Shown: positions 2,613-22,181 of the stretch, piece after piece
How positions within the stretch are numbered: position 1 is the first letter of the stretch
Layout of the letters: every line of letters starts with the position of its first letter
IMG/VR virus record: IMGVR_UViG_3300009422_000045
Location: 1 to 23,895 of that record
Direction: 5' to 3' (one strand)
Source: a virus
Length of the DNA stretch: 23,895 bases
Made by a program: the position numbers and the translations under genes
The notes under the pieces: model-generated
Database searches by the model: none
The model's input: only the letters and a program-made list of their open reading frames with translations
Told to the model about the DNA's origin: nothing

Positions 2613-2923
2613 TGATTCACACGCTACTGGCAGCCAGACAAGGAGACGCAGTAAGCACAGGTCATGACTGTGATAGTGCTACAGTCTTGGCCATCCCCAG
2701 TCAGTCTACAGTGTTTGCTGAAGCAAAATTATGGTGTAGAATAGGTGATAGAACAGTGTCTCATGATATATTGAAAGAGTTGCTATGTGTGTCACACACT
2801 GCTCCTATCAATGAAGGTAGCGGCACAGTGTTTGTTGTTGGCATAGGATGTGCAAGACTAGAAGATGGTGCTGACGCAGGATCCATTACTGGCAGTGCAA
2901 TCACAGTGTACGCAGGGGATTAA
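2612..2923 (+). CDS. PAAR-repeat spike-tip protein (gp5.4-like)
   Basis: PAAR proteins cap the distal tip of the gp5/VgrG spike and sharpen it with a bound zinc ion. The 103-residue length, the N-terminal AARQGDAVSTGHDCD and the glycine-spaced beta strands (VFVVGIGCARLEDGADAGSITGS, here split as VVGIGCARLEDG then ADAGSITGS) fit the family. Candidate zinc ligands are H18, H51, C59 and H62, matching the three-His/one-Cys set described for PAAR proteins; assignment of each ligand is my inference. The start codon shares its A with the TAA stop of the spike gene (TAATG), which implies translational coupling and roughly matched synthesis of spike and tip. Its own stop, TAA at 2921, is also the beginning of the TAAATA element in front of gp25. 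Confidence 0.85.
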   Translation: MIHTLLAARQGDAVSTGHDCDSATVLAIPSQSTVFAEAKLWCRIGDRTVSHDILKELLCVSHTAPINEGSGTVFVVGIGCARLEDGADAGSITGSAITVYAGD

Positions 2924-2926
2924 ATA
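2919..2926 (+). promoter_or_regulatory. Late-promoter-like element (ATTAAATA) before gp25
   Basis: ATTAAATA matches 6-7 of 8 bases of the T4 late -10 box TATAAATA and ends 6 bases before the gp25 ATG (intervening CTAGTC). It overlaps the PAAR stop codon. There is no Shine-Dalgarno sequence between the element and the ATG. T4 late promoters have no -35 box, so none is expected. Confidence 0.6.
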
Positions 2927-2932
2927 CTAGTC

Positions 2933-3397
2933 ATGGCAGTTGTAACATTCAAAGATGCAAAAAGAACCACACAACAGGTACAGCAAAATCAAATATTCAA
3001 CGGATTTTCAACCATAGGCCGTGAGTTTAAAGATCCAAAACTGTATGACATTGAACTGGTCAAACAGGATCTCCTTAATAATTTTAACATACGCAAAGGT
3101 GAAAAATTAGAAAATCCTAACTTTGGCACTAATTTATGGAACTATCTGTTTGATCCGTTGGATGCAGACACTAAAGATGCAGTGATCAGAGAAGTAGAAG
3201 CAGTTATAAATTATGATCCAAGAGTGGCACTAGATCAATTGGAAGTGTTTGAAGCCGAGAATGGTTTACAAGTCAAAATAACTGTACTGTACATTGGTTA
3301 CGCAATCGGCGAAACTTTAAACTTGTTATTTGACTCTGAACAAGGATTACTTCAAGGTCCAGGTCAAGTGTTTAACTCATCTCAGGCAAATTATTAA
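2933..3397 (+). CDS. 25: gp25-like baseplate wedge subunit / sheath initiator
   Basis: The gp25/TssE family forms the inner ring of the wedge and starts sheath polymerisation in contractile machines. At 154 residues it is close to the usual 130-150. The family pattern is clear: IRKGEKLENPNFGTNLWNYL at residues 53-72, then FDPLD, and the NYDPRV segment (residues 93-98), where DPR stands at the place of the conserved EPR motif. Upstream is the PAAR gene, 9 bases away; downstream, after 33 bases, comes gp6, as in T4 (25-6). The start is the only ATG before the conserved core and follows a TAAATA element at 6 bases, so it likely has its own late promoter. Confidence 0.92.
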   Translation: MAVVTFKDAKRTTQQVQQNQIFNGFSTIGREFKDPKLYDIELVKQDLLNNFNIRKGEKLENPNFGTNLWNYLFDPLDADTKDAVIREVEAVINYDPRVALDQLEVFEAENGLQVKITVLYIGYAIGETLNLLFDSEQGLLQGPGQVFNSSQANY

Positions 3398-3416
3398 GTA
3401 TACACTTTTTTAAAGC

Positions 3417-3424
3417 AATAAATA
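3417..3424 (+). promoter_or_regulatory. Late-promoter-like element (AATAAATA) before gp6
   Basis: AATAAATA matches 7 of 8 bases of TATAAATA and ends 6 bases before the gp6 ATG (intervening TCTTGC). It lies in the 33-base gap after gp25. No Shine-Dalgarno is present. It would drive the gp6-megaprotein pair, a transcript of at least 16.5 kb. Confidence 0.65.
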
Positions 3425-3430
3425 TCTTGC

Positions 3431-6400
3431 ATGGCTTCTAACACCCGACAAAATACCCTGTTAGCCAATACAGTATGGCAAAAACTTTATCGTACCTTTC
3501 AACAGGCTGACTTTAAATCATATGATTTCGATACTATTAGACGTACCCTAATTGATTATTTACAATTAAACTATCCTGAATCGTTTAACGACTTTATTGA
3601 GTCGTCGGAATACGTTGCACTCATTGATATGATATCCTATGTGGCACAGTCAATTTCCTATAGAGTAGACTTAAATGCCAGAGAAAATTTTATAGATCTA
3701 GCAGAACGTAAAGATTCTGTGTTAAGACTAGCAAGACTAATATCATATCAACCAAAAAGAAACACAGCAGGAAACGGTTTTTTAAAAATAACATCAGTTT
3801 CAACATCAGAAACAGTCACAGACTCCAATGGACAAAACATTGCAAACACACCAATACTTTGGAATGATCTTACTAATGACAATTGGCAGGACCAATTCAA
3901 CACAGTCATCAATGCAAGCCTACCAAAAAATCAATTTGTAAACAAACCCGAACAAAGTGACACCATAGGTGGAATAAATTCACAGTTGTACAGAATCAAT
4001 GGTGCAAATCTTGATCTGCCAACAGTGCCTTTTAGTCAAACAATTAACGGTGTGGGCATGGAATTTTCCATTGTGCCTTGTTCATTTGCAGGCGAAAAGT
4101 TTGTGTATGAAGAACCACCTATACCAGGCAACTCTATGTCTTTACTTTACAGAAACGACAATAGAGGATTTGGGTCGAACAACACAGGGTATTTCTTGCA
4201 CTTTAAACAAGGTGTGCTTAATTCTCAAGACTTTGCAATTACAAACACAGCGCCGAACACTGTGGTATCGATTCAGGAAAACAACATTAACAATGACGAT
4301 GTATTTTTATTCAAATTAGACCAAAACGGTGTGCTTGAGCAGAGATGGAGAAAAGTTCCTGCAATAGTTGGTAACAATATTATCTACAATAATCTAGCAG
4401 AAAATATCACAAATCAATTTGCTGTTGTGACTAAAAACAACGATCAAATTGATCTTGTGTTTTCCGATGGAGTGTATGGCACTTTACCACAAGGAAATTT
4501 TAGATGTTATTACAGACAAAGCAATGGATTAACGTACAACATCAATACTTCCGACATGCAGAATATTTCTATTGCTTTTGATTATATTTCGAAAAACGGC
4601 CAAACAAATACACTAACAATTCAGACTTCATTGCAGAGCACTATCACAAATGCATCAAGTTCTGAGTCTGTGGCAGATATTAAAACACTTGCACCACAGT
4701 CGTATTATTCAAATAATAGAATGATATCTGCAGAAGATTATCAAATTTTACCATTAACACAAAATCAATCAATTGCAAAAGCCAAGTCACAAGTAAGAAC
4801 AGCATCGGGTGTCTCAAGATTTTTAGATATTACAGATCCAACTGGTGTGTATTCGCAAACAAATATTGTAGCAGACGACGGTGTGTTGTATCAAGATCAA
4901 GGAACAAATACTTTTAATTTTCAATTTTTAACAAGAGATGATGTTGAAAAAGTAATCAACACATCTCTTACAGATGTATTAACTTCTGCAGACTTTAAAC
5001 AGTACTACTATAAAAATCATCCAAGAATTACTCCACCAACTGGTACACTTTGGAACAAGTCTACACAGACAGTGAATCAAGCCACAGGATATTTTACTAA
5101 CGGCGGTGCGTTGAGTGTTGGAGGTTCGACCACAAACAATTTAAGATACTTGACTGCAGGTGCTCTTGCAAAATTTACACCAACTAGTGGCAATTACTTT
5201 ATGCCTGGTAATGGCACACAGAGACCAGGTGTTGGAGGTCATCCAGGGTCTACAGACACTATATGGACTAAAATTATATCTGTTGAAGGCGATGGGTCAA
5301 ATGGTGGTCTAGGCAATCTGTCAGACGGGAGTGGTCCTATAGTGTTAAATGATTTAGTACCAACTGATGCTGTACTGTCTGAAATAATTCCGCAGTTTAT
5401 AGATTCTATTTCGGATACATTAAAAGCATCAATCATAGATCTAGTTGTAGAATTTGACAATTTTGGGTTAAGTTACAACATAACTGCAAAAACTTTTGAT
5501 ATTGTGACAGAAGCCAATCTAGGCAGTGGAGCATTTGCTTTAACACATCAAGGTGATACTACAGGAGCAAATTTAGATAATTCATGGTTAATAAAGTTTA
5601 TAACCAATGGTGTAAGTTACACAGTAACACATAGAAAAACACAATATGTATTTCAATCTGCTACAAGAAACAAATTTTACTTTGATCCAACAGCAAAGGT
5701 AATTGATCCGCAAACTGGAGTATCTATAAAAGACAAGATCAGATTGCCGGCTAGTAACACAGCATCTGATTTCACTAGCAGTCTAACATACAATTATGAT
5801 TGGCAAATTGTAGGTAATGTTGTAGGGTCAGATGGCTACAACGATACTAGAAAAATAGAAGTAGGTTTCTTTGATTCTGATGATGATGGAGTTATTGATA
5901 ATCCTGATCTATTCACAATTATTGTAGATCCGAGTACAAACATAAACAACAAATACGTATTTTTTAAAACGGTCACAGTAGAAGGATATGATCAAGATAG
6001 TATTGTGGATCAAACACAATTTGTTGTTGTAAAAAATGCTTTAGAAGTTACAAATTTTGCAGTTTATCCTGATAACCAATTGTTTTACTATTATGGAGAT
6101 GATGCATTTTATCAGTATTCCGCAACCACTAACAGCACAACAGCAGTTACAATTTACACTGCTAAACTAGGTAGACAAGACCTAATTTACAACTATAATC
6201 ATGGAGCTGTAAGAAGTAGAAGAATAGATCCTAGTGTATCGAACATTATAGATCTTTATGTTGTGACAAGATCTTTTGATCAACAACTGCGTACATGGTT
6301 AAGAAATAGTCAAGCAACAGCAAAGCCTGAAACACCTACAATATTTGATTTAGAAACTGCGTACCTGTCATCCTTGGATGGGATCAAGGCTATAAGTGAT

Positions 6401-6910
6401 GAAATAGTTTTTAATCCAGGCGAATATAAACTATTGTTTGGACCAGGTGCGGACGCTTCATTACAAGCACAGTTTAAAGTTATTAAAAATCCACAAAGCA
6501 CTGTCAGTGATAATCAAATTAAATCATTAGTAATTTCTGCTATAGATACCTATTTTCAAATTGACTTTTGGGACTTTGGCGATACTTTTTATTATACAGA
6601 ATTAGCCGCTTACATACACAATAATCTAGCACCAGATTTATTAAGTGTTGTGATTGTGCCATCTCAAAGCACTAATGGATTTGGTTCTTTGTTTCAAATA
6701 TATGCAGAAGACAATGAAATATTTGTGTCATCAGCTACAGTAGATAATGTTGAAATTATTTCTTCGATCTCAGCAGAAAAACTTAAAGCAACCGGTACAG
6801 TAATAACTAGTTCTGCATCTTCAACAGCAACTACAGGTACAGTATCTGCAACTAGTACTACATCAGGCACAGTATCTACCACTGGTTCATCCAGTGGAGG
6901 ATATTACTAA
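3431..6910 (+). CDS. 6: gp6-like baseplate wedge protein, enlarged
   Basis: gp6 forms the backbone ring of the baseplate wedge. The N-terminus (residues ~1-120) is typical of marine T4-like gp6: LYRTFQQADFKSYDFDTIR, then a TLIDYLQLNYPESFNDF segment, SSEYVALIDMISYVAQSI and DLNARENFIDLAERKDSVLRLA (split here for length). The C-terminus keeps the gp6 ending (DFWDFGDTFYYTELAAYIHN, VVIVPSQS, FGSLFQIYAEDNEIFVSSATV). At 1159 residues it is far longer than T4 gp6 (660). The extra mass lies mainly in the middle, roughly residues 540-900, and includes a perfect EF-hand-type loop, DSDDDGVIDNPD, at residues 815-826. The last ~40 residues are a Thr/Ser/Gly-rich tail. The stop overlaps the megaprotein start (TAATG), and its last codons carry that gene's Shine-Dalgarno. 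Confidence 0.92.
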   Translation: MASNTRQNTLLANTVWQKLYRTFQQADFKSYDFDTIRRTLIDYLQLNYPESFNDFIESSEYVALIDMISYVAQSISYRVDLNARENFIDLAERKDSVLRLARLISYQPKRNTAGNGFLKITSVSTSETVTDSNGQNIANTPILWNDLTNDNWQDQFNTVINASLPKNQFVNKPEQSDTIGGINSQLYRINGANLDLPTVPFSQTINGVGMEFSIVPCSFAGEKFVYEEPPIPGNSMSLLYRNDNRGFGSNNTGYFLHFKQGVLNSQDFAITNTAPNTVVSIQENNINNDDVFLFKLDQNGVLEQRWRKVPAIVGNNIIYNNLAENITNQFAVVTKNNDQIDLVFSDGVYGTLPQGNFRCYYRQSNGLTYNINTSDMQNISIAFDYISKNGQTNTLTIQTSLQSTITNASSSESVADIKTLAPQSYYSNNRMISAEDYQILPLTQNQSIAKAKSQVRTASGVSRFLDITDPTGVYSQTNIVADDGVLYQDQGTNTFNFQFLTRDDVEKVINTSLTDVLTSADFKQYYYKNHPRITPPTGTLWNKSTQTVNQATGYFTNGGALSVGGSTTNNLRYLTAGALAKFTPTSGNYFMPGNGTQRPGVGGHPGSTDTIWTKIISVEGDGSNGGLGNLSDGSGPIVLNDLVPTDAVLSEIIPQFIDSISDTLKASIIDLVVEFDNFGLSYNITAKTFDIVTEANLGSGAFALTHQGDTTGANLDNSWLIKFITNGVSYTVTHRKTQYVFQSATRNKFYFDPTAKVIDPQTGVSIKDKIRLPASNTASDFTSSLTYNYDWQIVGNVVGSDGYNDTRKIEVGFFDSDDDGVIDNPDLFTIIVDPSTNINNKYVFFKTVTVEGYDQDSIVDQTQFVVVKNALEVTNFAVYPDNQLFYYYGDDAFYQYSATTNSTTAVTIYTAKLGRQDLIYNYNHGAVRSRRIDPSVSNIIDLYVVTRSFDQQLRTWLRNSQATAKPETPTIFDLETAYLSSLDGIKAISDEIVFNPGEYKLLFGPGADASLQAQFKVIKNPQSTVSDNQIKSLVISAIDTYFQIDFWDFGDTFYYTELAAYIHNNLAPDLLSVVIVPSQSTNGFGSLFQIYAEDNEIFVSSATVDNVEIISSISAEKLKATGTVITSSASSTATTGTVSATSTTSGTVSTTGSSSGGYY
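5873..5908 (+). other. EF-hand/dockerin-type calcium-binding loop in the gp6 insertion
   Basis: Residues 815-826 of gp6, DSDDDGVIDNPD, fit the 12-residue calcium loop: acidic residues at positions 1, 3, 5, 9 and 12, glycine at 6 and isoleucine at 8, followed by LF. No second EF-hand is obvious nearby, which resembles single-loop dockerin-like or structural calcium sites in extracellular proteins. Calcium binding is inference. Confidence 0.6.
6896..6900 (+). promoter_or_regulatory. Shine-Dalgarno GGAGG for the megaprotein gene
   Basis: GGAGG ends 9 bases before the ATG at 6910 and lies in the SSGGYY codons at the end of gp6. It is the strongest ribosome site in the window and decides the start. 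With the TAATG overlap it indicates coupled translation from the gp6 message. Confidence 0.8.
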
Positions 6911-9900
6911 TGAGCAAATCTACTAGATCAAGTTCTCAATTATTACCTCAAATATTTCAAACAGAGAAGAACAAAAGGTTTATCAACAGCACACTTGATC
7001 AATTAATTGAACCAAGTGTATTAGATCAACTGAATGGGTTTATAGGACAAAAGTATCGTCAATCATACAACACCACAGAGCAATATCTCAGCGAAAGCAC
7101 AGAACAAAGACAGAGTTATCAATTAGAACCTACAGTGACCTATAAGTCAGACGGTAACACCATTGACTTTGCCTCACAGTACATTGATGCTGTGAATGAA
7201 ATTGAGTCACAAGGCGGTAGCAACGCAAAGCATGATCGACTGTGGGAACAAGAATCTTATGCTTATGCTCCACCTATAGATCCAGATAAGTTTGTAAATT
7301 ATAGACAATATTATTGGATCAGTGAAGGACTTACACCGATATCTTTGTTACTATCCAGTGGCACAAAAACCACTATAGGTGTTACTAATAATAGTTTCGG
7401 TGCTTATGTATTTTCAAACAAAAATGGGCAAAATAACCCTGATATCATTGTGTACAAAGGCAGTACATATGAGTTTGAAGTAGATGCTCCAGGACATCCT
7501 TTTTACATAAAAACACAATATGCAACTGGCACAGACTACCAGTTTTCCAATGATCATGTTTCTAACAATGGAGCAACTTCCGGAACAGTAACTTTGAAAG
7601 TTCCTGCTAGTGATTCATCAACCAACGCAGAAACAGTTTTATTTTATCAATGCGGTAATCACACAGCAATGCGTGGTAGAATTATAATCAAAGACCTTGA
7701 CGACGTACTATTTGATCCAGCAGAAAATATCATTGGCTGTAAAAAATTTACTGATGCATCTGGGTTAGAGTTAACTGATACAATCAATGTTCAAATTACA
7801 TCTTCTAGTGTTGCAAATTATCAAGACAAAAAATACTTCATAAGTGGAGTAGGTGAGAGCATAACTTTTACTGATATATCACAGCATGAAGTAGTTGAGG
7901 CATATGGTGTTGAAAAAGGAGAAGTATGGGACAGAGATGGTACAGAAGGTTTTGATACAGTAGGGTTTGATAACTCCACTGCTCAAAGTTCCAGTCCAGA
8001 TTATTGGACCATAGACAGATCATCTGCAGATTTAAATGCATGGAGCAGAGCAAACAGATGGGTACACACACAAGCAATACAAAAGACAGAAAGCAAATTA
8101 AACGTCACAATAGGTTTACCAGAAAACGCAAGAGCAAAACGTCCCATCATTGAGTTCGTTCCAAATTTAGAACTGTTTAGTCATGGTACCACTGGTAGGT
8201 TAATTGACATTATTGATTCTTCTAACACAGATGCTTTTAGTAATGTGTCTGGTGCAGGAGCATATGTGGCTGACGGTTCACAACTGCGTCAAAATGATTT
8301 AATATGTTTTACTGCTGATCCTAACACAGTAAACAAAATTTATCGTGTAGATTTTGTATCTGTATTCGGCCTAGCTGATGACAGTTCTTCCGTAGCACAA
8401 GTTATAAGATTGGTAGAACATGAAACGTTTACAGATGCACAGTCAGTTACTGTTGTGTCTCGTAGAGGTGACAACAAAGGACAACCATATCATATTGAAA
8501 ATGGAGCATGGAAAAAATCACAACAAAAAACAAAATTAAATCAAAAACCTTTGTTTAATGTATATGACACTGACGGAAATTCGTTAGGTGACGCGGATGT
8601 TTATCTTTCAAGTAGTTTTATAGGCTCAACACTATTTGAGATTGCAACAGATGACACTCAAGGCACACCTGACACTGTGTATGGCACAAACGTCATATAT
8701 GAAAGACTGGGATTAATTAATGATTTACGTGCAAACGATACTTTTAACAGTGGAACATTTGATTATGTTACTGAAGGAGCCATTGTAACAAAAAATCTAC
8801 GTCAGTATTTTTACAGGATCTTTAACAGCACACTGAACAACTATGAATACACTAACAACTGGAAAAAATTTATTGTTAAAAATAGCCAAAAAATAATAAG
8901 AGTATATGAAAGTGATCAGGATCAACAATATTTTGAAATTGACCAATACCTAAATCCAACAGCACTATCTGATCTCACAGTGCAAGTTTTATTAAACGGT
9001 GCAACAACTAATGATTATCAGTTAACTCCGATCAATGACCATTATTATGTGCAAACTACATCAATAATTGCATCAGGCAATGTTATCACAATAAAAGCAC
9101 ACTCTTTGACAGGTACTCCTAGTGGCAATGGATTTTTTGAAGTGCCTTTAGGATTACAGCGAAATTCACAAAATAAAAATATTAAAAAATTAACACTAGG
9201 AGACATGGTAAAACACTACAACTTAGCAGTCAATGAACATCCAAATTTTGTAGGCACTGCAATTGGAGGAAATAATTCTAGAGATTTAGATAATGTTTTT
9301 GCTTATGGTTCTCTAATCATGCAACACTCTGGAAATGATTCTTTATCACACATATTAGTTAAAGACAAATCCATTAACTTAATTGGAGCAATGAGGCACA
9401 GCAGTCGTGAGTATGAAAAATTTAAACAAAGTCTTGTCGACAGAGTCAGACAGGTGTCGTTAGATGGCACCATTGCACAAAACTTTGATGAACTTATAAA
9501 ATTAATAAACAAAAATAAAAATTCTACAATGCCTTTTTATGACACTGATATGTTAGCATATGGCGATGATCAAGTCACACTATCTTACACAGTAACAGAT
9601 CCAGCCATTGTAAATTATCCTATAAGTGCATCACACAATCTAACAACTCTCGGCAACAAATCTGTGTATGTATATCTAAATGATGTGCAACTAACACATC
9701 TTGCAGATTATCAATTCACTGACACTGCTGACTCCGCGGCACAAAATGGTATTGAAGTTATGACTGCGTTGGCAACAAATGATGTTATTAAAATTGTTGA
9801 GTACACCAGTTCAGATGGTTGTTTTATACCTGCTACTCCAACTAAATTAGGCCTTGCTTCTGCATGGAGACCGGAAAAGTTCACAGACGACACTTATCAA

Positions 9901-15900: not shown

Positions 15901-18900
15901 GAAAAAAATCTTACAAAATTTTTAGAATTCACACCATTGCCTAGTGCTGTTTTGGGTGAATTTGATAGATCAGTGGATACAGAAATTGATCTAACATACA
16001 TAGACACTGATTTACTTGATGTTGGCTACAAAGTACTAGTCTTTACAGATTCTGACACAGTAGACGGATGGGCAGTCTACACATGGAATGGTGAAACCTG
16101 GATAAGAAGTTCACAACAAACTTATGACACTACAAACTATTGGTCATATTCTGATTGGCACGCTACAGGCTATGATAAAAACACAGTGGCAGACTATGTG
16201 GTAGCAGATGAAAGAACAAGATTAAACAGCACATATAATAAAGGTGATATTGTTAAAGTGCGTAAATCATATGGTGGAGAATCTAGATTTTACGTGAAAA
16301 CTTCAGCATCTTTCAACACTATAATAATTGAAAATGGAACACTACAACTTAGTACTAGGTTATATGATTATGCAAACAATGCAGTAGGGTTCGGAGCAAC
16401 AGCATATGCATCAGGATTATACGATGCAGAAGCAATTACTGAACTACGTAATATATTAGAAGGAGTTAAATCTTGGTCAGTAGACGAAGATGCTAATCTG
16501 TTTAATGAAATATTCTTCTTAGGAGTACGTATTGCACAGGTTGAACAGAAAGATATTGATTGGACATTTAAAACATCATTTGTAAAACTATTAAACACTT
16601 ATTCTGATCTAGAACAACTGCGTGAATTCCAAATTGATGCATCTGCTTCAGTGTCAGAATTTTTTAGAGAAGTTTTACCTTTCAAAACTACTGTGAGAGA
16701 AGATGTAACCTCGTATAAAAATCAAGATATTATGCAAGGCGATATCACTGACTTTGATAACAAGAGTTATTATGACAAAACTATTGGTCAATACATCACG
16801 CCTGCACTGTCTATAGATGACAGCACATACTTTGATGTGTACGATACTAACCCATGGAAACAGTATTCTGATAACTTCAAATATAACATTGGAGCAATCG
16901 AAGTAGGCAATGGTGGCGAAGGCTATACAGAAGCACCTCGCATTACTATCAGCGGCGGAGGTGGATCAGGAGCCACTGCCAAAGCAATCATAGGTGATGC
17001 CAAAGTCACAAAAATAACAGTGACTAACAAAGGTAGTGGCTATACATCAACGCCAACAATTACAGTAACAGGCGGTGGAGGCTCGGCAGTCACTAAGACA
17101 GCAACAGTATTTGCAGTTTTAGAAAACACTAAAGTTAGGAACATAGACACAACTGTAAAATTTGATAGGATAAACACTTTAAAAACAATCACAAACACAG
17201 TCATATTAAATTGGACTGCGAACACATCATATACCGCAGGGCAAAACGTAAGATATTTGAATGAAATATACAGAGTAACCAATGACTTTACAAGTAATTC
17301 AACGTTTATTAGCAATGTGACACTCAATGACTCGTCGTCTGTAGTGAGTACAGCACCGTTAGTGCGTTGGACTGCTACAGATAGAATACATGCTTATTAT
17401 AGACCTACCACTGGTATGGCAGGACTTATAGGAGATGGTTCGACAACAATTAACACTTATGCTCAATTAATGACTGGTATAGAGTACCTAGGAGTAAAAG
17501 TTCAATCAAATGCTTTCCAATCTGCATCTGGTTATGATGAAATTAGTTTTGATAACAATCAGTATGATGTACAGACAGCAACAGATGATGCCACTGTAGG
17601 AAATTTAGATCAAATTCTAGACTCTAGAACATTCACAACGCAGTTAGGACAGAGAGCTGAAGATATAAACGTGGTAGGCGATGCATTTATTTCAGAATAT
17701 TCTGCACACGCTCCAGAAGAAGTTATACCCGGGGGTGTGTACGACACAATGGATCTTAAAGTGTTTACAAGACAGACAGACGGCACATCTCTGATTGTAA
17801 AACGTGCTTATTTTGGTGATGGATCAACCACTGTGTTTGATACTCCAGATCTTGGCACTAGTGACGGTTTAAGAGTTTTTGTAAACAATATTTTCAAAAA
17901 CAAAGATGTTGACTACACAGTCAATTTCAAAACAAAAGAAATTACGTTTACCACTGCGCCTGCTGTAGATGCTGTGATTGGTTTGCAAGCCATACAAGTG
18001 GCAACAGAAAATCTGATTGGGAAATTTACTTTTGAAGGTGGTGACTCAGTGTCAACATTTAATATTCCTGTGACTTTTGATCTTATCACTCAAACATATG
18101 TGTTAGTGAATGGTGAAAAACAAACTGCTTCCATATCTGTTAATTCTGATGGTGGCACAGACGTAACCATACAGGACGCTCCAGACAATGCACACATTGA
18201 AATATTTGTTTTTGATCTAGCCACATCAACAAAAGCATTTTCTGAAGTGGTTACAACAGAATATGCTGATATTCCAGGATTTATTAACAACGCAGAAATA
18301 GAAATTCAAATAGATCCTGCTAATCTAGTGCTTGGACCGCATCATCACAAAGTTATTGTTGAGGGTGTGGCATCCGGTACTGGCACAAACAGATACAGAT
18401 TAGATCCGCCACAAGTTAGTTACTTTGTGGGAGATGGTTCCACACTGAGTTTTGACATTCCTAATTTTCCAGAGCCATCCGCAGACGCCACCATTGCCAC
18501 TGTGGAAGTTTGGAAAAATGGAATCATACTACAAGCAGGACAAGACTTTTTCCTAAGCACAACCCTGGCAGGTTTTAGAGCGATCACATTGGATGGTCCA
18601 CTAACAGCCGATGACACACTTGCTGTGGTATACAAACGAAATCATGATTATGAATTAGATGCTCAAGGTGTTTTAAAAATACAACCAGGAGCATTTGGAG
18701 ACTCCAGTATTGATAACAGCAGAATATTTGTAACTACGTTTGCTAATTCTGATCAACAACACATACGTACTCAAGTGTTGGCAAAAACTGCTGGCTTAAA
18801 CACTGTGTCAGGCGCTGTTCTGCCAGAAATTGACAGAGGCGATTTAGGCGTATCAGTCGTTAACAACATTGATGATCGTGGAGATTTAACCACTGCTTCT

Positions 18901-19947
18901 GCAAGTTTAAATTTTGGTACTCTGGGTGCTAGTGTCACTGGTACAAATGATGCTGGGGCAATTACTGGCAATATTTTTTCTACTACAGCAGTGAACAATG
19001 TTACTGTAACACAAGATTTTGGCGATCTAGGCATACAAACAGCCTCCCCAGAAGACTTTGGTTTCCTTGGTGCCGCGGTCCTGCTACCAGATATACAAAC
19101 TACCAGATTCCAATTGGCAACAGTTCCGTCGAATCCTGATTTCACAATGGTGTCTATCAACAAACAGTATGTGCAATCAAATTTTGATTACAGACTCAAC
19201 GGCAGTATACTAGAATTTGCAAACAGAAACTTCCAAGATAGTGACATTATTACCGTGACATACTTTGGAGGTGCACCAGTGAATCCTTCCATAGGATATA
19301 GAGTGTTCAAAGACATTATTAATAGATATCACTACAAGCGAGTCGCAGAAAAACACAGCACCAAATTAACCACAGCGATTACTAAAGACAGTGTAGAAAT
19401 CACAGTGAATGATGCCACTGTGCTAGGTAACCCTTCACCAACAACCAACACACCTGGTGTAGTTTTTATTGGTACTGAACGTATTGCATTCTTTGAAAAA
19501 GACGGCAACACATTGAAGCGATTATACAGAGGCACTCTAGGCACTGCGGTTCAATCACATGCAACAGGTTTACCTGTTGTGGATGCAAGTGCAATACAAA
19601 ATATACCATACGAGGACACCACAACAACTACAAAATTCACTGGTGATGGATCAACACTAGTGTTTGCCTTAGACTATGTGCCTAGTTCTGCAAACGAATT
19701 GACTGTGTTTGTAGGAGGAGAAACAGTGAGTGGCTATACAGTAGGTTCAGATTCTAGCACCGCATTAACACTGTCTTCTGCACCAGCCTCAGGTGTTGAA
19801 ATAAGAGTGATACGAAAAGTTGGCAGTGTATGGTACGATCAAGGCACATCAACAGCATCAAATGGATTAGGATTACAATCAGCCACTGGTGTTCAGGTAG
19901 AATTTTTACAAAAAGGCTCAAGTTCTTTGAACCTAATAGTTAACTAA
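6910..19947 (+). CDS. 4345-residue mosaic baseplate/fibre-like megaprotein
   Basis: A single uninterrupted frame of 13 kb, coupled to gp6 and in the place of T4 gene 7, although I see no convincing gp7 similarity. The N-terminus (LLPQIFQTEKNKRFINSTLD) and the region around residues 1130-1290 (KRPWESLGFTIKPDYWDTRY, PYTRGNLVLWNDIANG, PETAWRKSSSYRFAEQIAKF) look like a conserved core of marine T4-like structural proteins. Modules in order: cupredoxin-like domain (~158-262); carbohydrate-binding-like W/Y/G patches (~1432-1475, ~1690-1733, ~3433-3469); HGL/D-type beta repeat (~1980-2040); FG-GAP-type propeller (~2160-2680) with a GDGST module inside it; a helical conserved stretch (~2950-3015, and ~3180-3260); glycine-rich GYT repeats (~3332-3410); five more GDGST-like modules (~3634-4345) broken by an RGDLG-type repeat (~3973-4060). 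No signal peptide, transmembrane segment or enzyme signature is seen. Likely a baseplate-peripheral adhesin or giant tail fibre; function inferred from modules and position only. Confidence 0.85.
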   Translation: MSKSTRSSSQLLPQIFQTEKNKRFINSTLDQLIEPSVLDQLNGFIGQKYRQSYNTTEQYLSESTEQRQSYQLEPTVTYKSDGNTIDFASQYIDAVNEIESQGGSNAKHDRLWEQESYAYAPPIDPDKFVNYRQYYWISEGLTPISLLLSSGTKTTIGVTNNSFGAYVFSNKNGQNNPDIIVYKGSTYEFEVDAPGHPFYIKTQYATGTDYQFSNDHVSNNGATSGTVTLKVPASDSSTNAETVLFYQCGNHTAMRGRIIIKDLDDVLFDPAENIIGCKKFTDASGLELTDTINVQITSSSVANYQDKKYFISGVGESITFTDISQHEVVEAYGVEKGEVWDRDGTEGFDTVGFDNSTAQSSSPDYWTIDRSSADLNAWSRANRWVHTQAIQKTESKLNVTIGLPENARAKRPIIEFVPNLELFSHGTTGRLIDIIDSSNTDAFSNVSGAGAYVADGSQLRQNDLICFTADPNTVNKIYRVDFVSVFGLADDSSSVAQVIRLVEHETFTDAQSVTVVSRRGDNKGQPYHIENGAWKKSQQKTKLNQKPLFNVYDTDGNSLGDADVYLSSSFIGSTLFEIATDDTQGTPDTVYGTNVIYERLGLINDLRANDTFNSGTFDYVTEGAIVTKNLRQYFYRIFNSTLNNYEYTNNWKKFIVKNSQKIIRVYESDQDQQYFEIDQYLNPTALSDLTVQVLLNGATTNDYQLTPINDHYYVQTTSIIASGNVITIKAHSLTGTPSGNGFFEVPLGLQRNSQNKNIKKLTLGDMVKHYNLAVNEHPNFVGTAIGGNNSRDLDNVFAYGSLIMQHSGNDSLSHILVKDKSINLIGAMRHSSREYEKFKQSLVDRVRQVSLDGTIAQNFDELIKLINKNKNSTMPFYDTDMLAYGDDQVTLSYTVTDPAIVNYPISASHNLTTLGNKSVYVYLNDVQLTHLADYQFTDTADSAAQNGIEVMTALATNDVIKIVEYTSSDGCFIPATPTKLGLASAWRPEKFTDDTYQPTDSSSEVTGVDVIRGHDGSITVAYGDFRDDIILEFEKRIYNNIKIKFDEEIINLDYGFFRDNEYSSQEILNLLSRDFYNWTGTNGVDYTTNTTYSASNDFTWNYSNYKNKIDQTSLPGYWRAIYRQWFDTDAPHKRPWESLGFTIKPDYWDTRYGTAPYTRGNLVLWNDIANGFIAEGNRKGFYPRYAKGSNFLNVLPVTESGELASPGNAGIINNNTSIPSALKQNWQYGDGGPPETAWRKSSSYRFAEQIAKFLAKPSRYAGLFFDRSRINKNIIGQYVYNSLHRQQVTDYVLPTGAFFTAGYINTVSDYLKSLGYTASTYLADRLDNISIQLSYKLGGFTNKDNMQVAVGSVSPQSTSRGVFLPQQDFSILLYKSAPLVNANYSGVIIQKTDTGYKVSGYANFNRTFTYRKPRQFNDSILIRVGAVTDSFVEWQGGGFYSKGTIAKNQGVFYRAKNAVSSSESFNTDDWAEIGNTLPLKGGVSVKKYKNYNPVTTTIPYGYEFKDVQEVADFLFGYDQYLQEIGFVFDEYINELNQPANWELSAKEFLFWTTQNWNIGSVISLSPAASTLKFQKENTIGDDLTDSDHFYSVLQQDGLPINPNNFATKRQDGIFQLITNPAEDGIYNADIRAVQKEHHLLLENVSQFNDVIFDDIIGNRQDRVKLVGFRTANWNGDLYAPGYILDQGKVADWTPYTDLRIGTNITHQGKYYVVTTNHTTTDNFESRYFTQRASAPVGAMLPNWDSKAEAFKDFYSLDSDNFDAEQQRYAQHLIGYEPRTYFQDLGLNELTQFKFYQGMLKEKGTIGPIEKFKSQPQSGQTSAYNIFEEYAFRVGEYGGHRTDQAFAFVISEKQHDHNRMIYQITEGANADTDTILNVNKNTDLFLKPYAFSGDVFGTIDYTATQNSAENIFKYNMAGYVLPSQVDFTVYNESDLLALDVTAFAEGTTVWIANTNANDWDVKRFSSSNLSTIIYKQFDDVLQITTDGPHGLFTDDYVVITNTNETINGVYKVNLDDSTDDQKTFSVDFAGDFDSTNTIGTIGVLKTIRINTMDDLDSIIPDKGFVIGDYVYVDNNYTLSQPNNGLWQVLQKSTDTSYTNSTVSFDTEYESDAEIGTSVVVDVDNLVLATGASGVNKVFIYIRNQVAEDFYLRNEIELDIANPLGGDKFGQSLASTKTGNRLFAGSPETNDIVRLTLDTTDVQLTRAVTITGGTSGATGKILEVDHNDNVYWVKVTSVANFENEPVSVGDSSSVVSITAVLGTDNTKTGAVHWINQDVNTSFSIKQSIVAPDVNAGGEFGASVAVSGDGTYLAVGAPGGPNDSSAEGRGTVYIYKYAKDGSSTRYDIHQTLVPTNSQLGARFGTDVKFAEDGSALIVTSAQYDNDSTTTDNGRATVYRFKNDAYYEHETLVPQTFDAIEFGTSVAIDSDGSDVVIGAPLYTDTVSTQGGVFHYSLKTSTLQGDGSTTAFESGFAINMSDAVGVFVDDENIAFTNDGSSTPYYILDGSSTGITFSTAPASGSQITISQYQLVETLVSRAPSVNQGFGNTVSIDDNTLIVQSKQGDSKRLTTFDSISTDGSTVLLETTFDNNATKFNDISYDSGQVSVFVKLNTEFQFVQNLTSPVALKSGANFGSSIAISNLSVYVGAKNNDTTFNNLFAGLQSFSNSGQLLTFNKPTTGLGWNNVIEQPNLVDTQKLKSAFTYNIATGTVVNFLSIIDPAKGKLFPQVQEHIKYQVPFDPADYALWDEDHVGEIWLDVSTFKYMWYEQGSLDERLINWGKLHPDSNVEARQWVASSLTPTQYNALTGTNQGDSQGITGTANSKFVTKRVFDDNRSIFVNRYFYWVTNSTTVATGDSVSASQIASSIADPATFTNNFIAMVSNESILLNLDRTQLEENKIGLHFENTTDSDQLQKHTEYALVSKNDPNSAIPQQLVDKFFDSLVGFNTNGKPVPDMTQPEGLRYGSLDRPRQSWYKDKLNALKVIVKFINSKLLLKAYAVEKNLTKFLEFTPLPSAVLGEFDRSVDTEIDLTYIDTDLLDVGYKVLVFTDSDTVDGWAVYTWNGETWIRSSQQTYDTTNYWSYSDWHATGYDKNTVADYVVADERTRLNSTYNKGDIVKVRKSYGGESRFYVKTSASFNTIIIENGTLQLSTRLYDYANNAVGFGATAYASGLYDAEAITELRNILEGVKSWSVDEDANLFNEIFFLGVRIAQVEQKDIDWTFKTSFVKLLNTYSDLEQLREFQIDASASVSEFFREVLPFKTTVREDVTSYKNQDIMQGDITDFDNKSYYDKTIGQYITPALSIDDSTYFDVYDTNPWKQYSDNFKYNIGAIEVGNGGEGYTEAPRITISGGGGSGATAKAIIGDAKVTKITVTNKGSGYTSTPTITVTGGGGSAVTKTATVFAVLENTKVRNIDTTVKFDRINTLKTITNTVILNWTANTSYTAGQNVRYLNEIYRVTNDFTSNSTFISNVTLNDSSSVVSTAPLVRWTATDRIHAYYRPTTGMAGLIGDGSTTINTYAQLMTGIEYLGVKVQSNAFQSASGYDEISFDNNQYDVQTATDDATVGNLDQILDSRTFTTQLGQRAEDINVVGDAFISEYSAHAPEEVIPGGVYDTMDLKVFTRQTDGTSLIVKRAYFGDGSTTVFDTPDLGTSDGLRVFVNNIFKNKDVDYTVNFKTKEITFTTAPAVDAVIGLQAIQVATENLIGKFTFEGGDSVSTFNIPVTFDLITQTYVLVNGEKQTASISVNSDGGTDVTIQDAPDNAHIEIFVFDLATSTKAFSEVVTTEYADIPGFINNAEIEIQIDPANLVLGPHHHKVIVEGVASGTGTNRYRLDPPQVSYFVGDGSTLSFDIPNFPEPSADATIATVEVWKNGIILQAGQDFFLSTTLAGFRAITLDGPLTADDTLAVVYKRNHDYELDAQGVLKIQPGAFGDSSIDNSRIFVTTFANSDQQHIRTQVLAKTAGLNTVSGAVLPEIDRGDLGVSVVNNIDDRGDLTTASASLNFGTLGASVTGTNDAGAITGNIFSTTAVNNVTVTQDFGDLGIQTASPEDFGFLGAAVLLPDIQTTRFQLATVPSNPDFTMVSINKQYVQSNFDYRLNGSILEFANRNFQDSDIITVTYFGGAPVNPSIGYRVFKDIINRYHYKRVAEKHSTKLTTAITKDSVEITVNDATVLGNPSPTTNTPGVVFIGTERIAFFEKDGNTLKRLYRGTLGTAVQSHATGLPVVDASAIQNIPYEDTTTTTKFTGDGSTLVFALDYVPSSANELTVFVGGETVSGYTVGSDSSTALTLSSAPASGVEIRVIRKVGSVWYDQGTSTASNGLGLQSATGVQVEFLQKGSSSLNLIVN
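7381..7695 (+). other. Cupredoxin-like domain with a complete type-1 copper ligand set
   Basis: Residues ~158-262 of the megaprotein form an immunoglobulin-like beta domain with H196 (in GHPFYIKT) and the C-terminal loop C248-G-N-H251-T-A-M254. His, Cys-x2-His-x2-Met is the ligand arrangement and spacing of amicyanin-type cupredoxins. The strand before Cys (VLFYQC) and the one after Met (GRIIIKD) also fit. Copper binding is inference from the motif. Confidence 0.65.
13390..14940 (+). repeat. FG-GAP-type beta-propeller repeats in the megaprotein
   Basis: About six imperfect blades share a pattern of FG-x-S/D-V then G-x-x-L-x-V-GAP: GGDKFGQSLAST, GGEFGASVAVSGDGTYLAVGAP, GARFGTDVKFAEDGSALIVTS, AIEFGTSVAIDSDGSDVVIGAP, NQGFGNTVSIDDNTLIVQS and GANFGSSIAISNLSVYVGA. 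This resembles the FG-GAP/integrin-alpha propeller. Two foreign modules are inserted between blades: a GGTSGATG beta unit after the first and a GDGST module after the fourth. Confidence 0.7.
14281..14505 (+). repeat. GDGST beta module 1, inside the propeller
   Basis: Residues ~2458-2530: GDGSTTAFESGF, a VGVFVDD strand, then ITFSTAPASGSQITISQY. The pattern (GDGST-x3-F, VxVFVxxxx, LTFxxAPxxGxxIxI) recurs five more times near the C-terminus. It is a small beta sandwich seen in many phage fibres by my recollection; it likely provides an exposed face. Confidence 0.7.
16903..17140 (+). repeat. Two tandem glycine-rich GYT beta repeats
   Basis: Residues ~3332-3410 contain two copies of the unit GxGYTxxPxITxxGGGGS: GGEGYTEAPRITISGGGG and GSGYTSTPTITVTGGGG, each followed by an Ala/Thr/Lys strand. 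Similar GYT-x-P-GGGG units occur in other phage and surface proteins and are likely elongated beta structure. Confidence 0.75.
17809..19944 (+). repeat. C-terminal array of GDGST-type beta modules
   Basis: Five modules related to the one at 14281 follow each other with spacers: about 17809-18000 (GDGSTTVFDTPD...ITFTTAPAVDAVIGL), 18022-18230 (GGDSVSTFNIP), 18421-18640 (GDGSTLSFDIP), 19093-19270 (QTTRFQLATVP...NFQDSDIITVTYF) and 19624-19830 (GDGSTLVFALD...LTLSSAPASGVEIRV). A lone GDGSTTI segment at 17431 may be a further degenerate one. The second and fourth have lost the GDGST start but keep the strand order. Confidence 0.65.
18826..19090 (+). repeat. Short RGDLG / FGDLG imperfect repeats
   Basis: Within ~90 residues (about 3973-4060) the unit [RF]G[DTF]LG-x-[SA]V recurs: DRGDLGVSV, DDRGDLTTAS, FGTLGASV, DFGDLGIQT and DFGFLGAAV. 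Two copies contain the tripeptide RGD (R3976 at 18835 and a second at 18877). The spacer residues are Asn/Thr/Ala-rich. I do not know the fold. Confidence 0.6.
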
Positions 19948-19962
19948 AAAAAATTGGAAAAA

Positions 19963-21447
19963 TTATAAACGTCCAACTACAACTTCGATAACGCCTTCAG
20001 CGTCTGAGTTATAGTCTTCTAGTGCTTTGCCGAGCACACAGCCTAGTGTATATTGTGCAGTGTTTAATCTACATGCTACACCTGGTGTGTTTGATGAAGT
20101 AACCATGTCACCTTTAGCAATTGGGCCTTTTACTTTACAAGGCACACGACCAGTAAGTCCTAGCAGTACACCATTTTCTAAATCATTGTTCATGATAAAT
20201 GCTGGATCAGTGGATACAATACCTGCAATCTTTGCATCATGTGTTGATGTGGATTGGGTAATTTCTTGTTCGCCACCAAACACCATCACAGTGCCTGGAG
20301 AGTATTGGGTATCAGCAGTATATTTTTCAGCCAAGTCAGCGTATTGTGCCGCTGTAACTGTACCAGTTATAGTGCCTGAGACACGCAATGCCTCATTTAT
20401 TAATATCTCAGCCGAGTCAGTTGATTGGATTATGTTCACATCCAGTGTGGTAGTGACCAATGAAGTACAATCGGCTATGATTGTGCCACCTGATGTGATT
20501 GTTAAATTTGTGTCATCGCCTTCGATCTTCTCACCAGCACCGAACACTAAACCTTTGTTCGCAGGAATGTGTACATCTGTGTTGGGAGATAAGTTAAGTT
20601 TACCACCTGATGTAATTGTTAAATCTGTGTTGTCTGTTTCAATCTTCTCACCACCATCACCAAAAGCAAGACCAATGTCTACAGGAATAAACACATCTGA
20701 AGTTGCTGCCAAAGTAATTTTTGCACCTGAGGATATTGTTAAGTCGGTGCCATCACTGGCAATTTTTTCTCCTGAGTCTGCGAATCTAAGTTCTTTGCCT
20801 GACGCTATAAGCAATGCAGAAACATCGCCGTCTAGTCTAAACACCTCAGTGGCAGCCCCGCCATCATTGACAGTGAATATTAAATCTTTGTCCGAAGTTG
20901 AATTGGCTACGGTCACATCACCACTTGATTGTGTGGCTGAAAATCCTGAAGCCAGTGTTAAAGTGGTACCAGTTACAGTGGTACCAGATATTGTTGTGGA
21001 ACTTGTTATAGCACCTGACACACTTAAACCATCATCAATAAAGATTGCTGAGCTTCCTTCAGCTTTGATTACTCCAGTAATTAGAAGATCATCATTAATA
21101 GTAACACCAGTTGAATCTGATGATGATATGCTGGTTAAATTTACAACATTGTCTAATGCAAAGGTGACTGAATTACCAGCCACAGTTGGAGTAACTCCAC
21201 TGCCATCACCTTTTATTGTGATATCTGAATCTCCAGGGGTTACACTAATAGTGTTTGATGATGCATCTGATAGTGTAAAAGCACTGTTGACTTCTGAAAA
21301 CTTTGCTATTCTTATACCACCTGCTGTTGAGCCATCATGTACCCTGATGGTATCTAAATCTGTATCAACAGTAACTTCACCAATTGCTCCTGTAAAGGAA
21401 CTATGTTCTGAAGTACTGCCTCTTCTAAATTGTACTTGAGTTGCCAT
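19963..21447 (-). CDS. Tail-fibre-like protein with Mtd-N-type head and beta repeats
   Basis: The start is the ATG at 21447; a TTG two codons upstream is less likely because the ATG follows a perfect TATAAATA by 7 bases and opens directly on MATQVQFRRGSTSEHSSF. That opening, with GEVTVDTDLDTIRVHDGST, is the small N-terminal domain found on many phage fibres and on Mtd-like receptor-binding proteins. The middle holds three imperfect ~40-residue repeats (GEKIASDGTDLTISSGAKI, GEKIETDNTDLTITSGGKL, GEKIEGDDTNLTITSGGTI), typical of trimeric beta fibres. The C-terminus (AQYADLAEKYTADTQYSPGT, VMVFGG, then GIVSTDPAFIMN) resembles a terminal domain common in marine phage fibres, possibly for trimerisation or processing; that role is inference. 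It is the only gene on this strand, convergent with the megaprotein. Confidence 0.8.
   Translation of the reverse strand: MATQVQFRRGSTSEHSSFTGAIGEVTVDTDLDTIRVHDGSTAGGIRIAKFSEVNSAFTLSDASSNTISVTPGDSDITIKGDGSGVTPTVAGNSVTFALDNVVNLTSISSSDSTGVTINDDLLITGVIKAEGSSAIFIDDGLSVSGAITSSTTISGTTVTGTTLTLASGFSATQSSGDVTVANSTSDKDLIFTVNDGGAATEVFRLDGDVSALLIASGKELRFADSGEKIASDGTDLTISSGAKITLAATSDVFIPVDIGLAFGDGGEKIETDNTDLTITSGGKLNLSPNTDVHIPANKGLVFGAGEKIEGDDTNLTITSGGTIIADCTSLVTTTLDVNIIQSTDSAEILINEALRVSGTITGTVTAAQYADLAEKYTADTQYSPGTVMVFGGEQEITQSTSTHDAKIAGIVSTDPAFIMNNDLENGVLLGLTGRVPCKVKGPIAKGDMVTSSNTPGVACRLNTAQYTLGCVLGKALEDYNSDAEGVIEVVVGRL
20500..20800 (-). repeat. Three imperfect ~40-residue beta repeats in the minus-strand fibre
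   Basis: Each unit runs through FxDxGEKI, three to five polar residues, then TDLTITSGGKL and a D-V-x-I-P strand. At DNA level they share blocks such as the complement of ATCTTCTCACCA. They are spaced about 120 bases apart and are a plausible site for repeat-number variation. Confidence 0.7.
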
Positions 21448-21454
21448 GTGCAAT

Positions 21455-21462
21455 TATTTATA
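21455..21462 (-). promoter_or_regulatory. Perfect T4-type late promoter TATAAATA before the minus-strand fibre
   Basis: On the minus strand the octamer TATAAATA reads from 21462 to 21455 and is followed by ATTGCAC and the fibre ATG. It is identical to the T4 late -10 consensus. No Shine-Dalgarno is present. It lies 32 bases from the divergent + strand element. Confidence 0.75.
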
Positions 21463-21494
21463 TCAGAAAAAATAAGTGCTGTTAATTTATCCAT

Positions 21495-21502
21495 ACTAAA
21501 TA
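21495..21502 (+). promoter_or_regulatory. Late-promoter-like element (ACTAAATA) before the 217-residue protein
   Basis: ACTAAATA ends 6 bases before the ATG at 21509 (intervening ATAGGT). It is the + strand half of a divergent promoter pair in the 61-base gap, the longest gene-free stretch in the window. The short AGG in the spacer lies too close to the ATG to be a normal ribosome site. Confidence 0.65.
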
Positions 21503-21508
21503 ATAGGT

Positions 21509-22162
21509 ATGAGCGACTCCGATAATAAAGACTCTGATAAATCTACTATTGTAAAGCCAGATGAACAGCAAGGCTTAGACATTCAAGGTTATATCAAGAT
21601 TTTTGACCCTGATTCAGGCGCTGTATATGTAGACAAAAAGAATGCCATACACTATGAAAACTTTTCTAAATCACTAGCAAATTCTGTGGCCAACAGGACA
21701 ACTGGATACATTGAAGAAATGCATTTTGGTAATGGTGGAACCTCTGTAGATAACACAGGTATTATTACATATCTGACTCCAAACACTACAGGCGCAAATG
21801 CTAATCTTTATAATAGAACATATTATAAAAGTGTAAATGACAATTCATCCTTAAACACCGATATTACAAGAAACAAGATTACTATTGCACATACAGATGG
21901 CACAACATACACAGACACAATTATATCTTGTCTGCTAGATTTTGGTGAGCCTGCAGGACAGTCTGCATTTGATAACACAACCACAGTGAATGACACTTAT
22001 GTGTTTGATGAAATTGCATTATTTTCATGGGAAGGCACAGCGGGTGCTGGTAATTTGTTGACCCACGTGATTTTTCATCCAGTACAAAAATCTTTGAACA
22101 GATTAATTCAAATAGACTACACAATTAGAATACAGAGTTTAACAAACTTTGTTGATGTATAA
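21509..22162 (+). CDS. Conserved-type phage structural protein, unassigned
   Basis: A 217-residue protein without a signal peptide or membrane segment. After a charged start rich in Asp/Lys/Ser (residues 1-20), it has DIQGYIKIFDPDSGAVYVDK, NAIHYENFSKSLANSV, TGYIEEMHFGNGGTSVDNTG and, near the end, LLTHVIFHPVQKSLNRLIQI, blocks that I associate with a virion protein widespread next to fibre genes of marine T4-like phages. The beta-rich composition and the position between two fibre genes suggest a baseplate-fibre connector or collar role, which is inference. It has its own TAAATA element and 19 bases separate it from the next gene. I cannot equate it with a T4 gene; gp8 or gp9 substitutes would be candidates. 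Confidence 0.7.
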   Translation: MSDSDNKDSDKSTIVKPDEQQGLDIQGYIKIFDPDSGAVYVDKKNAIHYENFSKSLANSVANRTTGYIEEMHFGNGGTSVDNTGIITYLTPNTTGANANLYNRTYYKSVNDNSSLNTDITRNKITIAHTDGTTYTDTIISCLLDFGEPAGQSAFDNTTTVNDTYVFDEIALFSWEGTAGAGNLLTHVIFHPVQKSLNRLIQIDYTIRIQSLTNFVDV

Positions 22163-22167
22163 GGAAC

Positions 22168-22175
22168 GGTAAATA
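22168..22175 (+). promoter_or_regulatory. Late-promoter-like element (GGTAAATA) before the 569-residue fibre
   Basis: GGTAAATA ends 6 bases before the ATG at 22182 (intervening TAGACG), in the 19-base gap. An AAGGA at 22161-22165 lies 16 bases from the ATG, too far to act as a standard ribosome site and upstream of the expected transcript start. Confidence 0.6.
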
Positions 22176-22181
22176 TAGACG

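Follow-up and report, generated by a model that had tools for sequence, protein, structure and literature searches.

Do the main late genes of this phage begin their messages at the start codon itself? The question is raised by the hexamer TAAATA, which stands immediately ahead of several gene starts in the window, the 23,895-base stretch of DNA analysed here. As the window is the entire IMG/VR record, wider counts were made on relatives. No nucleotide match to it was found among 50,697 phage records, and its close relatives are all uncultured. At the protein level, gp6 is ~33–36% identical to the gp6 of Phosso, Atu_ph07, SCTP-2 and PA5oct, and a 217-aa protein is 53% identical to its Phosso and Atu_ph07 counterparts. 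By these comparisons the phage falls, within the T4 superfamily, in an uncultured group that is sister to the jumbo phages Atu_ph07, Phosso, CBB and PA5oct. A cyanophage origin, hinted at by GC content and T4-like genes, was rejected, the nearest isolates being jumbo phages of the Atu_ph07/Phosso/CBB type.

Position and depletion of the TAAATA box

The window holds six copies of TAAATA over both strands, five of which sit 6–7 nt before the ATG of a gene. On the plus strand the boxes at 2921–2926, 3419–3424, 21497–21502 and 22170–22175 are each followed, after exactly 6 nt, by an ATG (2933, 3431, 21509 and 22182). They open, respectively, the baseplate wedge genes gp25 (2933–3397; Pfam GPW_gp25, phrog_261) and gp6 (3431–6910; phrog_10646, E 1e-288), a conserved phage gene of 217 aa (21509–22162; phrog_11259), and a virion structural gene of 569 aa (22182–23891; phrog_14394), all four predicted to be leaderless. 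The gp25 box overlaps the stop codon of the preceding PAAR gene. On the minus strand, one copy (21460–21455) lies 7 nt before the ATG at 21447 of a tail fibre-like gene (19963–21447; phrog_9648), with a predicted leader of 0–2 nt, and the other (3562–3557) falls within gp6 and is not followed by an ATG. The full octamer TATAAATA occurs only at the fibre box (21455–21462), the core hexamer being common to all five. The fibre and 217-aa genes have back-to-back start codons across a 61-bp divergent control region (21448–21508) with one box each, an architecture also present in contigs G001–G005. These positions and spacings, listed in a first-pass annotation of the window, matched exactly on recount.

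Two further features of the region concern protein content. The fibre protein carries an Mtd_N domain (Pfam), the N-terminus of the major tropism determinant, and, towards its own C-terminus, a match to the autoproteolytic domain Peptidase_G2 that falls below threshold. The plus-strand ORF at 6910–19947 encodes 4345 aa and takes up 55% of the window; in PA5oct, Atu_ph07 and Phosso its counterparts carry virion structural protein annotations.

Dinucleotide shuffling of the window predicts 27.2 copies of TAAATA on both strands (sd 5.0), or ~14 per strand, so that an earlier estimate of about twenty per strand was somewhat high, while the deficit it described is real. In coding DNA, synonymous-codon shuffling of the nine window genes gave 30.8 expected copies against one observed (sense strand, 0 versus 15.0; antisense, 1 versus 16.1), and not one of the 1000 shuffles reached so low a count (z about −7). 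Among all 15 A4T2 isomeric hexamers, TAAATA is the most depleted in the window's coding DNA, and such codon-preserving counts also place it far below expectation in the coding DNA of relatives. The proposal that the hexamer has been purged from genes is thereby upheld. The lone antisense copy inside gp6 is kept in the nearest relatives only, small base changes abolishing it elsewhere, and is probably due to chance; a conserved antisense promoter was considered and rejected, as the site is not conserved across gp6 loci.

A probable late promoter of the gp55 type

The late promoter of T4 is TATAAATA, served by gp55, gp33 and gp45, with the octamer beginning at −13 (PMC2988020). In CBB, ATAAATA has been reported from sequence as a late motif at 35 places, together with a gp55-like sigma factor (PMC5259590). 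A profile search with the gp55 of PA5oct and CBB identified gp55 in twelve relatives (Phosso and eleven fetched contigs, including G001 of the window clade), and most of the large relatives fetched carry it. In G001 the gene lies directly upstream of the baseplate genes; the corresponding region precedes the start of the window, which ends before the place of gp55. In the stretch of G001 that separates gp55 from the first virion gene, the two boxes overlap to form the palindrome TAAATATTTA (G001:1865–1874, L010), with a spacing of 6 to the virion gene and of 40 to gp55 on the opposite strand. For the T4 sliding clamp (gp45), PF02916 matched only T4 among 20 records, a profile that would miss a divergent clamp. 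No consistent −35 element was found upstream of the boxes, and a candidate upstream element such as GTTAAT was weak, the TATTTA enrichment there being attributable to divergent boxes.

The strand distribution of the depletion bears on what the box is. Observed/expected TAAATA counts in coding DNA are 32/141 (sense) and 39/128 (antisense) in G007, 41/147 and 47/158 in G012, and 5/28.6 and 1/29.9 in CBB (6 versus 58 in total). Avoidance of a signal read in RNA would leave the antisense strand unaffected, so similar depletion of both strands points to a DNA promoter. As CBB, whose late genes are leadered, is equally purged, the purge is attributable to the promoter rather than to a missing leader; the avoidance described in the first-pass annotation is thus confirmed, and is not special to the leaderless layout. 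Two other explanations can be set against a promoter. That the rarity and placement of TAAATA are accidental might be suggested by a sample of just six copies, but this is already refuted by the shuffles and by the counts at called gene starts, the same pattern recurring in every clade member. The constant distance between box and AUG in the window would also suit an RNA translation signal, such as an A/U-rich enhancer or an S1 site; this is very improbable, given that the antisense strand is depleted to a similar degree, that relatives place the identical box 20–38 nt upstream, ahead of the Shine-Dalgarno (SD) sequence, and that the box matches the published T4 and CBB late promoters. On motif match, two-strand purge and the gp55 of relatives, the five boxes are best read, as first proposed, as gp55-type late promoters of the T4 superfamily ahead of structural genes.

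Spacing between box and start codon

What is new in the window clade, as judged from these genomes, is the spacing and not the box: 5–8 nt, against the leadered arrangement of relatives. The decisive evidence, absent from the first-pass annotation, is this contrast: in relatives, the same promoters retain a leader. Genes in relatives were simple longest-ORF calls with the nearest in-frame ATG, so individual spacings may be off, and only ATG starts were counted, all five window starts being ATG. Raw whole-record counts of TAAATAN{5,7}ATG, blurred by chance ATGs, carried little information, so boxes were counted at called gene starts instead.

In the structural-gene blocks of T4, CBB, Phosso, Atu_ph07, PA5oct, SCTP-2 and Syn9, the box lies mostly 20–38 nt ahead of the ATG and an SD usually intervenes, Syn9 being the exception (0/6 with an SD motif). 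The T4 boxes lie mostly at 14–35 nt with an SD between; those of CBB lie at about 26–38 nt, with an SD in 9/9. Across the seven outgroup blocks a single start has a box at 4–8 nt (control hexamers, 2.1), compared with 55 at 14–45 nt, whereas the window and G001–G007 have 69 at 4–8 nt (control hexamers, 12.7). The wider relatives (G008, G010–G012, G014 and G015) have both classes, with 77 close (control 16.6) and 156 leadered (control 73) starts, and between them a nearly empty class at 9–13 nt (4 versus 13.6 in controls). Leaders of 4–8 nt fit neither mode of translation, and a gap at 9–13 nt is therefore what leaderless translation predicts. The core clade has no such gap (12 versus about 6).

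Individual genes behave similarly. The gp25 spacing is 5–8 nt in 6/7 clade members, and close spacing precedes the 217-aa gene in many relatives. At the starts of this last gene, AGG-TAAATA-N4-ATG recurs in L056, L057, L062, L068, L070, L071, L075, L087 and L088, with a spacing of 4 in place of 5–6; on longer transcripts, the AGG abutting the box could serve as an SD, its distance to the AUG being ~10 nt. G007 is mixed: terminase (7 nt), the neck gene gp13 (5 nt) and gp25 (6 nt) are close, and the sheath gene keeps its box at 37 nt. The fetched contigs yielded no capsid, sheath or portal gene of the window clade. The view that the main late genes are leaderless hence fits the late transcription units seen so far, and is too broad as first worded.

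The gp6 gene gives the fullest series. On the gp6 tree the spacing is 5–6 nt in all seven members of the window clade (support 100/100), 14 in G007 and G008, 18 in G010, G011, G012 and G014, 23 in G015, and 31 in CBB. Throughout this series, leadered homologues included, the gp6 N-termini can be aligned gap-free from the first residue, which indicates that the start codon stayed in place and the leader shrank. The spacing is exactly 6 nt in the window, and likewise at each of the 22 gp6 loci among the viral contigs, with a variable spacer sequence. For the 569-aa gene, spacing is 6–7 nt in nine members and 26–28 nt in Atu_ph07 and Phosso. Just upstream of its box, ~15 nt from the AUG, stands AAGGA or AAGGAG (window 22162–22175; also G001, G003 and G004), too distant for a usual SD, which may be an ancestral SD or an aid on read-through RNA.

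Predicted transcript start and start modes

The T4 octamer starts at −13 and so ends at −6, which puts +1 at the sixth position beyond the box. The leadered outgroup promoters have an A peak at this position (65%), the T4 +1. In close promoters with a spacing of 5, position 6 coincides with the first base of the AUG, and the base before it is a pyrimidine in 95% of cases among the wider relatives and 81% in the core; with a spacing of 7, A is preferred at position 6 (77%), so that the transcript would open with AY-AUG and its leader would be 2 nt long; and with a spacing of 6, either position 5 or the AUG itself fits. The spacing of 4 in some relatives would require a start at position 5. A pyrimidine occupies −1 at 72% and 87% of close starts, compared with 48% and 42% of box-less starts, and close-spaced genes are also less structured over their first 40 nt. 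From T4 geometry and the −1 pyrimidine, a leader of 0–2 nt from the AUG would be expected. This agrees with the earlier suggestion that transcripts begin at or near the ATG; leaderlessness itself is what we infer from the spacing.

The five box-preceded starts of the window lack an SD in the usual place, whereas the start at 2612 of the overlapping PAAR gene has GAGG (2598–2601) and that at 6910 of the overlapping 4345-aa gene has GGAGG (6896–6900). These genes lie within units, and their motifs indicate that SDs are evidently used in this phage; the coexistence of two start modes noted in the first-pass annotation stands. The absence of an SD at the five starts, likewise borne out, is partly forced, the box occupying the SD slot. 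The same bias affects the wider comparison, in which an SD motif at −15 to −5 was found at 0/72 close starts (core set), 34% of box-less starts and 59% of leadered starts, the box filling most of this interval; upstream of the box (−25 to −14), SD motifs are near background (18% versus 12%). At 1041, 4 nt past the preceding stop codon, gp5 starts without a box or a good SD. In the window and G001–G007, 44% of close starts have GCN (Ala) as second codon, against 13% of box-less and 41% of leadered starts, and as leadered starts are similar this bias probably reflects virion proteins and not start mode.

Proposed leaderless late messages and the alternatives

Together, geometry and evolution lend good support to leaderless late mRNAs, and it is very probable that gp55-type late promoters 5–7 nt from the AUG produce them in this clade. 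In the proposed mechanism, the box ahead of each transcription unit would have been brought to 5–7 nt from the AUG that opens the unit, and gp55-programmed host RNA polymerase would initiate at position 5–7 past the box, ≤2 nt from the A of the AUG. Ribosomes would then recognise the late mRNAs through their 5′-terminal AUG by the 70S pathway, and later genes of the unit would start by SD or by stop–start coupling. In E. coli, a 5′-terminal AUG suffices for 70S binding (PMC4965119).

The chief competing account accepts TAAATA as a late promoter and has translation proceed mainly from longer transcripts, made by read-through or from another upstream promoter and served by SD-less leaders or by re-initiation after an upstream stop, with the close box contributing little. 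In its favour, gp25 starts 9 nt past the PAAR stop and gp6 33 nt past the gp25 stop, and phages often have SD-less leadered starts, as the 0/6 of Syn9 illustrates. In a polycistronic read-through RNA gp25 and gp6 would be internal, which counts against leaderless messages. The fibre and 217-aa genes, however, diverge from the 61-bp region with no gene upstream, and neither the exact spacing kept through spacer change nor the near-empty 9–13 nt class of the wider relatives (4 versus 13.6 in controls) would be expected if the close box did not set the start, which leaves this account an outside chance. It is also highly unlikely that the true start codons lie further downstream, giving the mRNAs ordinary leaders: the starts were called from sequence alone, but gp6 and the 569-aa protein match ordinary-leader homologues from residue 1.

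Phage-encoded translation factors were considered as a cause of leaderless initiation. Phage bS21 was rejected, being present in the leadered PA5oct, Atu_ph07 and Phosso and in no window-clade contig, and no phage-encoded IF2 was found in 20 records. IF3 disfavours leaderless mRNAs. An IF3-like protein (PF00707) occurs in the leadered Phosso, Atu_ph07 and CBB (the records behind L109, L110 and L113) and in 0/15 environmental records, whose contigs are incomplete; this presence/absence contrast is only a lead.

Relation to known systems

The window promoters resemble those of T4 in the core hexamer, the service of structural genes on both strands, the lack of a −35 element and the gp55 homologues of relatives; they differ in lying 5–7 nt from the AUG with predicted leaderless transcripts, where T4 boxes lie mostly 14–35 nt off with an SD (PMC2988020). 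The late motif ATAAATA of CBB and GAP32 shares the jumbo-phage lineage, the motif, the gp55-like sigma factor and the strong coding purge, and differs in its spacing (about 26–38 nt, SD in 9/9, versus 5–7 nt; PMC5259590). Leaderless genes are common in the Thermus phylum. The middle and late mRNAs of the large Thermus phage phiYS40 have been reported as leaderless (PMC3594737), in another phage lineage and from RNA evidence, whereas the window is known from sequence alone. In Deinococcus, a −10 element 6–7 bp before the ORF has been shown experimentally to give leaderless mRNAs (PMC12340547), likewise alongside SD-led genes, the element there being the cellular TANNNT and here a phage late box. 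The late promoters of the jumbo phage phiKZ also have a very short motif (TATG) near the start site, but are read by a phage-encoded multisubunit RNA polymerase and have no gp55 box (PMC7598289). No report of leaderless transcripts from gp55 late promoters was found in a search outside most of the subscription literature, for example transcription-start maps of T4-like cyanophages. With that reserve on novelty, the parts are known, and their arrangement is an unusual, clade-specific form of the T4-type late promoter.

Implications

The T4 late promoter and leaderless translation, usually handled separately, would meet here in one system. A doubtful but possible extension is that a gp55-phage lineage turned nearly all of its late units leaderless by stepwise leader loss, late initiation at a 5′-AUG (70S) then giving these messages an advantage, within host takeover, over the SD-dependent messages of the host and of early phage genes. 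For annotation, a box 5–7 nt before an ATG flags starts that are invisible to SD-based gene finders. One phage with mixed start modes offers a testable case, and the gp6 series, in which the spacing falls from 31 to 5–6 nt around a fixed start codon, would be a natural record of how a leaderless gene originates.
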